Positions 48,396-52,057 of a stretch of DNA of 64,000 nt are shown here, piece after piece. Where the stretch lies: positions 372,001 to 436,000 of the forward strand of contig NZ_SCOU01000002.1 in the NCBI RefSeq assembly GCF_005502435.1. The letters run 5' to 3'. This DNA comes from Methylobacillus flagellatus. GTDB taxonomy: Bacteria > Pseudomonadota > Gammaproteobacteria > Burkholderiales > Methylophilaceae. Under the pieces are notes generated by a model. It did no database searches and was not told the origin of the DNA. It saw nothing but the letters and a program-made list of their open reading frames with translations. The stretch's first letter is position 1, and each line of letters begins with the position of its first letter. The translations under genes were made by a program, and so were the position numbers.

Positions 48396-48490
48396 GGTGT
48401 GGAACGCCTGAACGTGAACATTGGCTTTTAACGTTCCAACCCAGCTATGGTTTACCTGAGCGTTCATTACTTAGCCAAGCCGATAAAACA

Positions 48491-48515
48491 AAAAACCTGC
48501 GTAAGCAGGTTTTTT
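48491..48515. terminator. Terminator downstream of dnaJ
   Basis: AAAAACCTGC-GTAA-GCAGGTTTTT, symmetric, 50 bp after the dnaJ stop on the minus strand. Confidence 0.85.
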
Positions 48516-48565
48516 GTTAAGGGATCATGCGTGTTTGAAGACTGGGTTTACGCTTGCTGGCGAAC

Positions 48566-49693
48566 TCAGTTGAACAAGTCTTTCACCTTGGTCATCCAGG
48601 ACTTCTCGCGCGGGCTGTGTTTGGCCGAGTCGGTCTGGTTGATCTCTTCCATCTCGCGCAGCAGTTCTTTCTGACGCTCGGTGAGCCGTACCGGCGTTTC
48701 CACCACCACATGGCACATCAGGTCGCCAAGCTCGTTGCTGCGCAGCGGCTTGATGCCCTTGCCACGCAAACGGAACACCGCGCCGGTTTGTGTTTCGGCC
48801 GGGATCTTCATCTTGGCGTGTCCATCCAGTGTGGGGATCTCGATCTCGCCGCCCAGTGCTGCAGTGGTGAAGCTGATCGGCATCTCGCAGTGCAGGTTGG
48901 CCCCGTCACGCTTGAAGATCTCGTGTGGTTTGAGGTGTACCACCACATACAGATCGCCGGTGGGGCCGCCGTTGACTCCGGCTTCGCCTTCACCGGACAG
49001 GCGGATGCGGTCGCCTTCGTCCACGCCAGCCGGGATCTTCACGGACAGGGTCTTGTGCTGTTTGACGCGGCCGCCGCCATGACAGGTGGGGCAGGGTTCT
49101 TTCACCATCTTGCCGCTGCCATGACACTTGGGGCAGGTCTGCTGCACGGAGAAGAATCCTTGCTGCATGCGCACCTGGCCGTGCCCGTTACAGGTGGTGC
49201 AAGTCACTGGCTGGGTACCGGGACGCGCGCCTGAACCGTGGCAGGTCTCGCATTCGGACATGACCGGGATGCGGATCTTGGTTTCGGTGCCGCGCGCGGC
49301 GTCTTCCAGCGAGATCTCCATGTTATAGCGCAGGTCGGCACCGCGATAGACGTTGGAGCGACGTCCGCCGCCACCTCCGCCACCAAAGATGTCACCGAAG
49401 ATATCGCCAAACGCATCAGAGAAGTTGCCGAAGCCAGCACCACCGCCTCCACCACCGCCCATGCTGGGGTCTACCCCGGCATGACCGTACTGGTCATAAG
49501 CGCCACGCTTCTCTTCGTCGGACAGGATCTCGTAAGCTTCCTTGGCTTCCTTGAAGCTTTCCTCGGCTTTCGGGTTGTCCGGATTACGGTCCGGGTGGTA
49601 CTTCATCGCCAGTTTGCGATATGCCTTCTTGATCTCCTCGTCGGAGGCATCGCGATTGACGCCGAGTACTTCGTAAAAGTCTTTTTTTGCCAT
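48566..49693 (-). CDS. dnaJ: Chaperone DnaJ
   Basis: This is a 375-aa Hsp40. It has a J domain with HPD ([10 protein letters not shown]), a Gly/Phe-rich region ([17 protein letters not shown]) and four zinc repeats ([32 protein letters not shown]). Same strand as dnaK, but separated from it by 435 bp holding an inverted-repeat cassette. Confidence 0.97.
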
Positions 49694-49700
49694 AGTTCAG

Positions 49701-50119
49701 GTGAAGGGGGAAGTGAGAAGGAGGAAGGGTTACAGTTTACGGCGTATTGAAGCTGCCAAATCCATAACCAATCCCGAAACATCGTCCACTTGCCGCTGTA
49801 ATTCCTCGTTGTGTTCCAGATAACCCAGTGTATGAGCTAATTCTACCAATGTATCCAGTTCCGATAATGAGCCACTCGCAATGCTGAGGAAATACAGCAA
49901 TTCTTTTCTTTACTGCCATTGCGCGCGAATCCTTCAGCAATGTTGGCAGGAACGGAAACCGCTGCTCGTCGTAACTGGCTGATCAGTCCAAACTGTTCGT
50001 GTTGAGGGAAGGTGGCAGTCGTCGAGTAAATGCTAGCCACTAACTGCGTCGCTTGTTGCCATGCTTTCAGCTCACGGTGGCTACGTTTCACCCTTCCTCC
50101 TTGCCCCTTCTCCCTTCAC
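49701..50119. mobile_element. S23-type cassette flanked by 30-bp imperfect inverted repeats
   Basis: Purine-rich repeats at 49701-49730 and, inverted, 50090-50119 agree at 26 of 30 positions (outer ends GTGAAGGG, inner ends GGAGGAAGGGT). Between them lies only the four-helix-bundle gene. The right repeat supplies its ribosome site and the left repeat overlaps its stop. No transposase is inside. No target duplication was seen. It behaves like a short mobile unit inserted between dnaK and dnaJ. Confidence 0.7.
49730..50091 (-). pseudogene. Four-helix-bundle protein (S23/IVP family), frameshifted
   Basis: From a GTG after GGAGGAAGG the frame reads MKRSHRELKAWQQATQLVAS, FGLISQLRRAAVSVPANIAE and GFARNGSKE, a clear match to the S23 family. 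It then breaks near 49901-49910 (AAAGAAAAGAA). One frame over, the family continues LLYFLSIASGSLSELDTLVE, AHTLGYLEHNEELQRQVDDV and MDLAASIRRKL to a TAA at 49730. A single-base change would restore about 120 aa. The break is at an A-rich run, so recent decay, sequencing error or recoding are all possible. Confidence 0.85.
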
Positions 50120-50128
50120 GATGCGAGA

Positions 50129-52057
50129 TTACTTCTTCGCATCCTTCACTTCTTCGAACTCGGCATCGACCACTTCTGCATCAACGGTCTTTTCGGCTTG
50201 CGGTTGCGCCTCATCACCAGCGCCTTGTTGCGCTTGCTGCTCGGCGTAGACCTTCTCGCCCAGCTTTTGTGAGGCGTCCATCAGCGCGTTGGTCTTGGCT
50301 TCGATGGCGTCCTTGTCGTCGGACTTGAGTACGTCTTCCACGTCCTTGATGGCGGCTTCGATGTTGGCTTTTTCTTCAGCATCCAGCTTGTCGCCATGTT
50401 CGCCCAGTGATTTCTTGACACTATGGATCATGCCATCAGCCGCATTGCGGGCATCGACCAGTTCGCGCAGCTTCTTGTCTTCGTCGGCGTACTTGGCAGC
50501 ATCTTCTTCCATGCGCTTGATCTCATCTTCAGACAAACCGGAGTTAGCCTTGATGGTGATCTTATTTTCCTTGCCGGTGGCCTTGTCCTTGGCCGATACG
50601 TGCAGGATGCCGTTGGCGTCGATGTCAAAGGTGACTTCGATCTGTGGCATGCCACGTGGTGCCGGCGGGATGTCGGACAGGTTGAACTGGCCTAGGCTCT
50701 TGTTGCCGGCGGCCATCTCGCGCTCGCCCTGCAGCACCTGGATGGTCACGGCATTCTGGTTGTCTTCGGCGGTGGAGAACACTTGCGACGCCTTGGTCGG
50801 GATGGTGGTGTTCTTCTTGATGAGCTTGGTCATTACGCCGCCCAGCGTCTCGATACCCAGCGACAGCGGGGTGACATCCAGTAGCAGCACGTCCTTGACG
50901 TCACCCTTGAGCACGCCACCCTGGATGGCTGCACCTACGGCCACGGCTTCATCCGGGTTCACGTCCTTGCGTGGTTCCTTGCCGAAGAATTCCTGCACCT
51001 TTTCTTGCACCTTAGGCATGCGGGTCTGGCCTCCCACCAGGATCACGTCCTGAATGTCGGACAGCTTGACGCCCGCATCTTTCAGCGCCATTTCGCATGG
51101 CTTGATGGTACGTGCGATCAGGTCTTCCACCAGCGACTCGAACTTGGCGCGGGTGATCTTTACCACCAGGTGCTTGGGGCCGGTGGCGTCAGCTGTGATG
51201 TAGGGCAGGTTGACATCGGTTTGCGTGCTGGAGGACAGCTCGATCTTGGCTTTTTCAGCGGCTTCCTTGAGGCGCTGCTTGGCTAGTAGGTCGTTGCGCA
51301 GATCTAGGCCGCCGTTGTCCTTTTTGAATTCGTCGGCCAGGAAGTCGATCAGGCGGTTGTCGAAGTCTTCGCCACCTAGGAAGGTGTCACCGTTGGTGGA
51401 CAGCACTTCGAACTGGTGTTCGCCGTCGATCTCGGAGATCTCGATGATGGAGATATCGAACGTGCCACCGCCCAGGTCATAGACGGCGACCTTGCGATCA
51501 CCTTCTTGCTTATCCATACCGAACGCCAGTGCCGCAGCAGTAGGTTCGTTGATGATGCGCTTCACTTCCAGACCGGCGATACGGCCGGCATCCTTGGTGG
51601 CCTGGCGCTGGCTGTCATTGAAGTAAGCCGGTACCGTGATCACGGCTTCGGTGACTTCTTCACCCAGGTAGTCCTCGGCGGTCTTCTTCATCTTGCGCAG
51701 CACTTCTGCGGAGATCTGTGGTGGTGCCATCTTCTGGCCGCGCACTTCTACCCAGGCGTCACCGTTGTCAGCCTTGGCGATGGTGTAGGGCATCAGGCCG
51801 ATGTCCTTCTGCACTTCTTTTTCTTCAAAGCGACGGCCGATCAGGCGCTTCACTGCGTACAGCGTGTTCTTGGGGTTGGTCACCGCCTGACGCTTGGCAG
51901 GGGCGCCGGTCAGGATCTCGCCATCTTCCTGATAGGCGATGATGGACGGGGTGGTGCGAGCGCCTTCGGCGTTCTCGATCACGCGTGGCTTACCGCCTTC
52001 CATGACGGCTACGCAGGAGTTGGTGGTGCCCAGGTCAATACCGATGATTTTTGACAT
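50129..52057 (-). CDS. dnaK: Chaperone DnaK (Hsp70)
   Basis: This is a 642-aa ATP-dependent chaperone. It has [43 protein letters not shown], the substrate-binding domain from about 390 and a C-terminus ending EEVKDAKK. A sigma-32 type promoter lies just upstream, and grpE precedes it on the same strand. Confidence 0.98.

Follow-up and report, generated by a model that had tools for sequence, protein, structure and literature searches.

Genes of the S23 protein family appear, on comparison of their flanks, to be framed by inverted arrays of tandem heptamers as a general rule across many phyla, and this recurring architecture, which is similar to that of the parasitic inserts of rRNA genes, points to a single, widely distributed family of very small mobile elements inside transcripts. 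The unit described here belongs to Methylobacillus flagellatus and lies in the 64,000-nucleotide stretch of DNA that was analyzed (the window), between dnaK and dnaJ and not inside a 16S or 23S rRNA gene. It is probably a mobile element of the rRNA intervening sequence (IVS) type living in a transcribed operon spacer.

The S23 unit spans 419 bp of the dnaK-dnaJ spacer (49701 to 50119, minus strand), with the following features.

50129 to 52057, minus strand: dnaK, operon neighbour upstream (NCBIfam)
50090 to 50119, minus strand: 5' arm (mRNA sense), about four degenerate heptamers, GTGAAGG GAGAAGG GGCAAGG AGGAAGG GT
50096 to 50101, minus strand: AGGAGG, Shine-Dalgarno-like, for S23, within the 5' arm and ahead of the GTG start
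49843 to 50091, minus strand: N-terminal frame of S23 (PF05635, TIGR02436), GTG start, departing from the family frame past GSKE
49901 to 49912, minus strand: frameshift site, extra AAGAA adjoining AAAGAA (compared with L013 and other relatives)
49730 to 49900, minus strand: C-terminal part of S23 in a different frame (profile positions 53 to 102), ending RRKL-stop, TAA at 49730 to 49732
49701 to 49730, minus strand: 3' arm (mRNA sense), inverted heptamer array, one-base overlap with the S23 TAA stop
48566 to 49693, minus strand: dnaJ, operon neighbour downstream (NCBIfam)

The inverted arms, 30 nt each (49701 to 49730 and 50090 to 50119) and 359 nt apart, are complementary at 26 of 30 positions (87%); 9 nt separate dnaK from the 5' arm, and 7 nt separate the 3' arm from the dnaJ start codon. 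A preliminary description of this DNA had proposed such repeats around the S23 gene, the right one supplying the ribosome site and the left one covering the stop codon, and both proposals hold: AGGAGG lies in the right repeat, which also shares bases with the S23 start codon, and the left repeat takes in one base of the TAA. The repeats are not, however, unique sequence but arrays of about four degenerate RRRAAGG heptamers, and the heptamer pattern of the 5' arm recurs elsewhere in the same genome. The arm-pair alignment score is 40, against a 99th percentile of 32 or 34 in two runs of a null in which S23 upstream flanks were paired with downstream flanks of other loci; the null maxima (45 and 48) exceed the score of the window unit, some of the chance pairs having heptamers in common. 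No Rfam family was matched at the gathering threshold across 48400 to 51000, and a simple consensus scan gave no sigma-70-like promoter in 49650 to 50200.

The first frame of the S23 gene matches PF05635 (E = 3.3e-22; 79.1 bits, cut-off 33.8) and TIGR02436 (E = 2.5e-19; 69.5 bits, cut-off 24) above the curated cut-offs, while a profile search with the second frame on its own matched neither. The reading frame is disrupted, with profile positions 1 to 66 in one frame and 53 to 102 in another; the extra AAGAA has the appearance of a duplicated 5-nt stretch, although the assembly may be at fault. The two pieces are a single gene, the only S23 match in this genome. The four-helix-bundle gene of the preliminary description is an S23 gene by family but is broken by a frameshift. 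Because of this break, the window copy is probably immobile. The sister species carries an intact S23 frame (L012).

In at least five of the 18 loci in the window family S23 is broken or truncated, which would suggest that an element can persist without it. The dN/dS of S23 pairs was 0.10, 0.16, 0.24, 0.07, 0.30 and once 0.58, with five further pairs saturated, and these values indicate that S23 is under purifying selection in five of the six computable pairs. Structures among the profile matches are 2gsc (E = 5e-41) and 2rld (E = 7e-12), with five chains each, and the Xanthomonas S23 protein is described as a homopentameric toroid (PMC4990558). S23 is like Avd of the diversity-generating retroelements by protein family; Avd is homologous to the S23 family and essential for retrohoming (PMC10053308). 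The window S23 matches DivGenRetAVD weakly (E = 1.4e-4, below the cut-off). Rings of the S23/Avd type are likely to bind nucleic acids. Diversity-generating retroelements differ in having a reverse transcriptase and template/variable repeats beside avd, whereas the immediate neighbours of the window unit are dnaK and dnaJ.

One 1.5-Mb genome of the class (G526; L222 to L231) has ten near-identical Avd-like genes in repeated blocks, for which DivGenRetAVD is the best family (47.8 bits, cut-off 80). These copies reach 17 nt of pairing at most (score 19 to 24), without heptamer arms, and were ruled out as S23 cassettes, being Avd-like genes within longer repeated blocks.

To the loci of the window family (18, S23 being present in 17 of its 187 genomes) were added 80 loci on genome contigs, the best 80 of at least 585 confirmed, and 30 loci of the class, kept from matches in 77 of 369 genomes. 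In these 128 loci, each upstream flank was compared with the reverse complement of its own downstream flank, with 2,560 mismatched pairs as the null. Inverted arms scored above 99% of the null in 68 of the 128 loci (8/18 family, 44/80 genome-contig and 16/30 class loci) and above 95% in 102, 60 and 26 loci, respectively, falling short of these levels; this null is conservative because some elements have heptamers in common. Pooled self-identity in the 68 arm pairs was 0.705 at lag 7, 0.716 at lag 14 and 0.674 at lag 21, compared with ≤0.316 at the other lags from 2 to 20. Among lags 3 to 12, the best was 7 in 61 of the 68 pairs, 8 in five, 9 in one and 11 in one.

A period count that is independent of pairing covered 127 loci and 126 flanks per side, excluding the window locus (L001) and dropping flanks of ≤100 nt. 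The share of flanks with a period-7 score of ≥14 was 54% upstream and 57% downstream, versus 2.2% of 2,512 windows further away, and among periods 3 to 14 only 7 and 14 were clearly enriched, with 8 enriched slightly (7% versus 0.4%). At a score of ≥12, arrays were present upstream at 76 loci, downstream at 85 and on both sides at 70 of 125, leaving 55 of 125 without two-sided arrays. The commonest of the 161 arrays had four units (52), followed by five (39; together 91), and the median length was 35 nt; 67 were longer and three had three units, a class against which the score threshold is biased.

The 5' arms are rich in G (0.389) and poor in C (0.119). The heptamer often varies from element to element while the two arms within one element match, and relatedness of the S23 proteins is linked only weakly to heptamer type (Mantel r = 0.14; 35 of 2,000 permutations as high; 59 elements). 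The expectation that similar repeats would flank other S23 genes was borne out for about half to four fifths of the loci, depending on the threshold, not as a common sequence but as a common period of 7.

Searches with one query protein found S23 in 39 of 72,556 plasmid records and in none of 50,697 phage records. Six loci from the 39 plasmid records, all cyanobacterial, comprised four with clear heptamer arms (scores 43 to 63) and two with weaker ones (29 and 32). Nine S23 copies were compared in three multi-copy genomes, two of which were already among the 128 loci: six scored >34 and three did not (15, 14 and 25), arms being absent from two of the four copies in G286 (15 and 14). Arm pairs could be read for four copies in G544, one with AGCGGGC, one with GGTAGAT and two of the GTGANTN type, the fifth copy lying at a contig end. 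Multi-copy genomes were rejected as evidence of recent copying, as the G544 copies encode different proteins and mostly have different heptamers. A few loci have long frames that overlap S23; these were also set aside, the frame being other than that of S23 in L081, L098, L099 and L129 (derived by hand).

The most frequent arrangement has the element in sense orientation, with genes of its own direction on either side. Both neighbours were called, from crude ORF calls, at 70 of the 80 genome-contig loci and were codirectional with S23 at 40, against it at 6 and mixed at 24. Among the six plasmid copies, one runs opposite to the genes on both sides, and one belongs to a row of genes that includes TrbI/VirB10. 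In the window family, six of 18 loci reside between dnaK and dnaJ and eight between guaB and guaA; outside it these two sites account for 4 of 110 loci in all (L050, L052 and L089 for the former, on the dnaK side before a contig end in L089; L069 for the latter). Two S23 genes are located among cas genes, one separating cas10 from cmr3 (L403, 1192 to 1548) and the other cas6 from cas4 (L404, 1189 to 1557). Such genes could pass for CRISPR accessory genes, but the plain reason for their position would be that cassettes sit in operon spacers; the term "23S rRNA IVP" appears in the legend to a figure in a study of rare CRISPR systems (PMC10910872).

The comparison of cassettes with their flanks indicates that the cassette has passed from species to species while most of the flanking sequence stayed behind. 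Two genomes of one genus, G148 and G138, have dnaK-dnaJ cassettes that are 97.8% identical over 456 aligned nt, compared with 87.8% for dnaK and 82.7% for dnaJ, while the G148 flanks are 92.7 to 93.8% identical to those of G110 and G146, both of which hold an unrelated 101-bp hairpin spacer instead. On the dnaJ side of G148 the identity switches at the start codon, the first 50 nt being 0.80 identical to the relative of the cassette and 0.92 to 0.96 to the relatives of the host; at the dnaK end, the final 50 nt are conserved throughout and do not allow a switch point to be placed. The flanks of the window unit and of its sister species G179 are 95.8 and 96.6% identical and the cassettes 68%. 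The closest cassette to that of the window is in G182 (79.7%), and the closest to that of G179 is a shortened one in G186 (80.3% over 325 nt).

The S23 tree, which includes 123 of the 128 loci (five short ones were dropped, including L016, L017, L018 and L089) and has few columns and a bootstrap that had not settled, groups the window copy with those of G182, Chitiniphilus and Hydrogenophilus, all at dnaK-dnaJ (support 99/93), and the sister-species copy with G138 (100/82). Copies cluster by site in this tree, in which 109 rows from other sites are outside the test and many forks are unresolved.

These comparisons support a mobile cassette, as the preliminary description had proposed for a unit in a conserved gene pair with no transposase gene inside it. 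Its more specific reading, a minimal non-autonomous transposon with S23 as cargo, fares less well: the unit appears to be mobile, but there is no common end sequence, target duplications are not seen by eye and S23 is under purifying selection in five of the six computable pairs. A recent empty site at dnaK-dnaJ, suggested as a check, is contradicted by the sister species, which holds another cassette in that gap. The outcome named as refuting, a gene that occupies one site in every relative and has drifting flanks, was found in part; the result is mixed because the cassettes share the place but are swapped between species.

In predicted RNA folds, ≥70% of the 5' arm pairs with the 3' arm in 58 of the 68 elements with significant arms, and <30% of the arm is paired in three. 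The window unit folds with 28 of 30 arm positions paired (-139.0 kcal/mol). Pairing of the arms would cover the AGGAGG of S23, and the Shine-Dalgarno sequence may thus be sequestered by the 3' arm.

Hairpins of the same construction occur without S23. A pattern search of the window genome found the window heptamer in two more inverted pairs, one at carA-carB and one at glyA-nrdR, as well as in two single arrays, one upstream of acpS and one within leuS. The control with the pattern read backwards can match the same arrays and is not clean. Of these pairs, a repeat search at the settings used recovered only the one at glyA-nrdR; the one at carA-carB is based on pattern matches and the fold, and a de novo array scan at score 16 overlooks degenerate arrays, including the arms of the window unit itself. 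The carA-carB spacer is 3 to 13 nt in six genomes of the family (G032, G053, G034, G186, G185 and G038) and, with the hairpin, 95 nt in the window genome (G000), 87 nt in G179 and 93 nt in G182; it is 79 nt in G051. G182, G185 and G186 are one genus, in which G182 has the hairpin and the other two the short spacer. Other such hairpins are found in guaB-guaA and dnaK-dnaJ spacers of the family, including genomes without an S23 match (e.g., G110 and G139). In G138, a GTGAAAC-type hairpin at guaB-guaA has the same heptamer type as the S23 cassette at dnaK-dnaJ.

The dnaK-dnaJ, carA-carB and glyA-nrdR spacers are all of the GAAGG type in G000 and all of the GTGAAAC type in G179. A genome-wide rule that hairpin type follows S23 type was nevertheless rejected: in 856 kb scanned of 2.38 Mb, G000 also has GTGAAAC-type arrays at three places and one of the GGGGCTA type, the leuS array is of the GAAGG type in both G000 and G179, and G046 has S23 arms of GGGGCTG and a carA-carB hairpin of the AGTCGTT type. 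AAACC as a common loop motif of the S23-less hairpins was weak and was dropped.

The closest known kind of element is the rRNA IVS rather than the MITE. The IVS of Coxiella burnetii (428 nt) has an S23 ORF, GACAGAT heptamers before that ORF and a 28-bp stem, with cleavage by RNase III (PMC4990558). It is like the window unit in its S23 ORF, inverted stem-forming ends, heptamers and decaying ORF, and differs in lying in an rRNA gene, whereas the window unit lies in an mRNA spacer and has another heptamer. Because a check with nine oligonucleotides found no 23S rRNA copy among the first 98 loci, the identity with rRNA IVSs relies on this one paper.

Free heptamer repeats are reported in Xanthomonas and Nostoc (PMC4692102) and in Beggiatoaceae (PMC4679880). 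The GGGAATC heptamers of Xanthomonas mostly have four units, form 70 inverted pairs in one genome and 75 in another, lie mostly in spacers of codirectional genes and are described as generally unassociated with mobile elements (PMC4692102). "S23" does not occur in the main text of that paper, and no S23 gene is linked to heptamers there; GGGAATC is, in our set, the arm heptamer of S23 cassettes in Xanthomonas vasicola (L124), Luteimonas (L078) and Rhodanobacter (L111; GGGATTC in L083).

Thus the S23 family, the rRNA IVS, the heptamers of the Coxiella IVS and free heptamer repeats are already known, and we found no prior report in the open-access literature of the rule linking S23 to heptamer arms or of S23 elements in protein operons. 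In the account of PMC4990558 (2016), neither a function nor a mechanism of movement is accepted for S23 proteins and rRNA IVSs. Why 7-bp repeats are in excess in bacterial spacers is a question of its own (PMC4692102). Connecting S23 with heptamers joins these two puzzles and raises a testable question, whether the S23 ring binds its own heptamer array.

An IVS-type element in an operon spacer could operate as follows. It would be promoterless and cotranscribed with dnaK and dnaJ, and its arms would form a stem of ∼28 to 35 bp; cotranscription and folding are inferred from the orientation, the lack of a promoter match and the predicted fold. The stem may be cut by RNase III, as published for rRNA IVSs, and the cistrons would then be separated, making the insertion nearly harmless. 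S23 would be made early, from the Shine-Dalgarno sequence in the 5' arm, and be turned off once the 3' arm is transcribed, and its pentameric, Avd-related ring may act on the arms. Movement could involve transfer of an RNA or DNA hairpin, aided by S23, into spacers in which a hairpin of similar design is already present, which we consider more likely than a transposase acting in trans. A bolder and rather doubtful extension is that many of the unexplained heptamer repeats of spacers form one RNA-hairpin mobile class, comprising S23 elements and S23-less hairpins. The S23 homopentamer would read one heptamer per subunit (5 × 7 = 35 nt, equal to the median array length), register mattering more than sequence, and a reverse transcriptase supplied in trans would, with S23 acting as Avd does, copy the excised hairpin into other transcribed spacers; one heptamer per subunit is suggested by the arrays of four to five units and the five subunits.

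Mobility need not be intrinsic, as exchange at a conserved site can also occur by homologous recombination through dnaK and dnaJ. Passive allele exchange, in which recombination moves a variable spacer and the arms are transcript-processing hairpins, is possible but unlikely to be the whole account. It would fit the repeated occupation, among the 18 family loci, of dnaK-dnaJ (6) and guaB-guaA (8) and the clustering of S23 copies by site, but the exchanged tract of G148 stops at the spacer on the dnaJ side, and allele exchange fails to explain why one genome has S23-less hairpins of a single heptamer, that of the window unit, at loci unrelated to each other.

MITEs and REPINs are short non-coding derivatives with inverted ends that lie in spacers. 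The short S23-less inverted derivatives found here are like them, and a MITE whose arms are the ends of a DNA transposon mobilized by a transposase in trans would account for the inverted ends, these derivatives and the sporadic distribution. We nonetheless regard it as improbable, since window-type ends are tandem heptamers of element-specific sequence, arm pairs differ even within G544, and neither a target duplication nor a fixed target sequence was seen by eye at dnaK-dnaJ, guaB-guaA and carA-carB, where spacers diverge. Tuning of dnaJ, guaA and other downstream genes by an RNA-binding S23 in the service of the host is less probable still, despite the recurrence of the dnaK-dnaJ and guaB-guaA sites and the purifying selection on S23: the gene is present in only 17 of 187 family genomes, occurs also at cas6-cas4, at cas10-cmr3 and in the TrbI/VirB10 gene row, and is broken or truncated in at least 5 of 18 family copies.

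Several further observations concern heptamers and spacers in the same genomes. The leuS array (L244, G000 C3:493358-493385; L253 in the sister species) is in frame and encodes EKGEGGSEKG, or EKGEGGIEKG in the sister; it need not be an insertion, as the loop is of variable length in relatives also. A GTGAAAR tandem array at one site is 61 nt in G000 (C2:300446-300506) and 154 nt in G179 (C5:17842-17995) and is a fast-changing heptamer microsatellite. At carA-carB of G179 (L265), the first hairpin heptamer gives the carA stop, with the tail EKRMNQ-stop versus EKRK-stop in G000. CACAGAG-like inverted spacers form a second family, at dnaK-dnaJ (L203 and L216), at guaB-guaA (L170 and several of L173 to L186) and in L037; their units have a period of 9 in L203 and L037 and not clearly so in L216. 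CACAGAG-like repeats often lie beside GxxExxY genes. In G126 (L202), a 1,322-bp dnaK-dnaJ spacer has a 401-codon frame beside a TAGTCGT-type hairpin.
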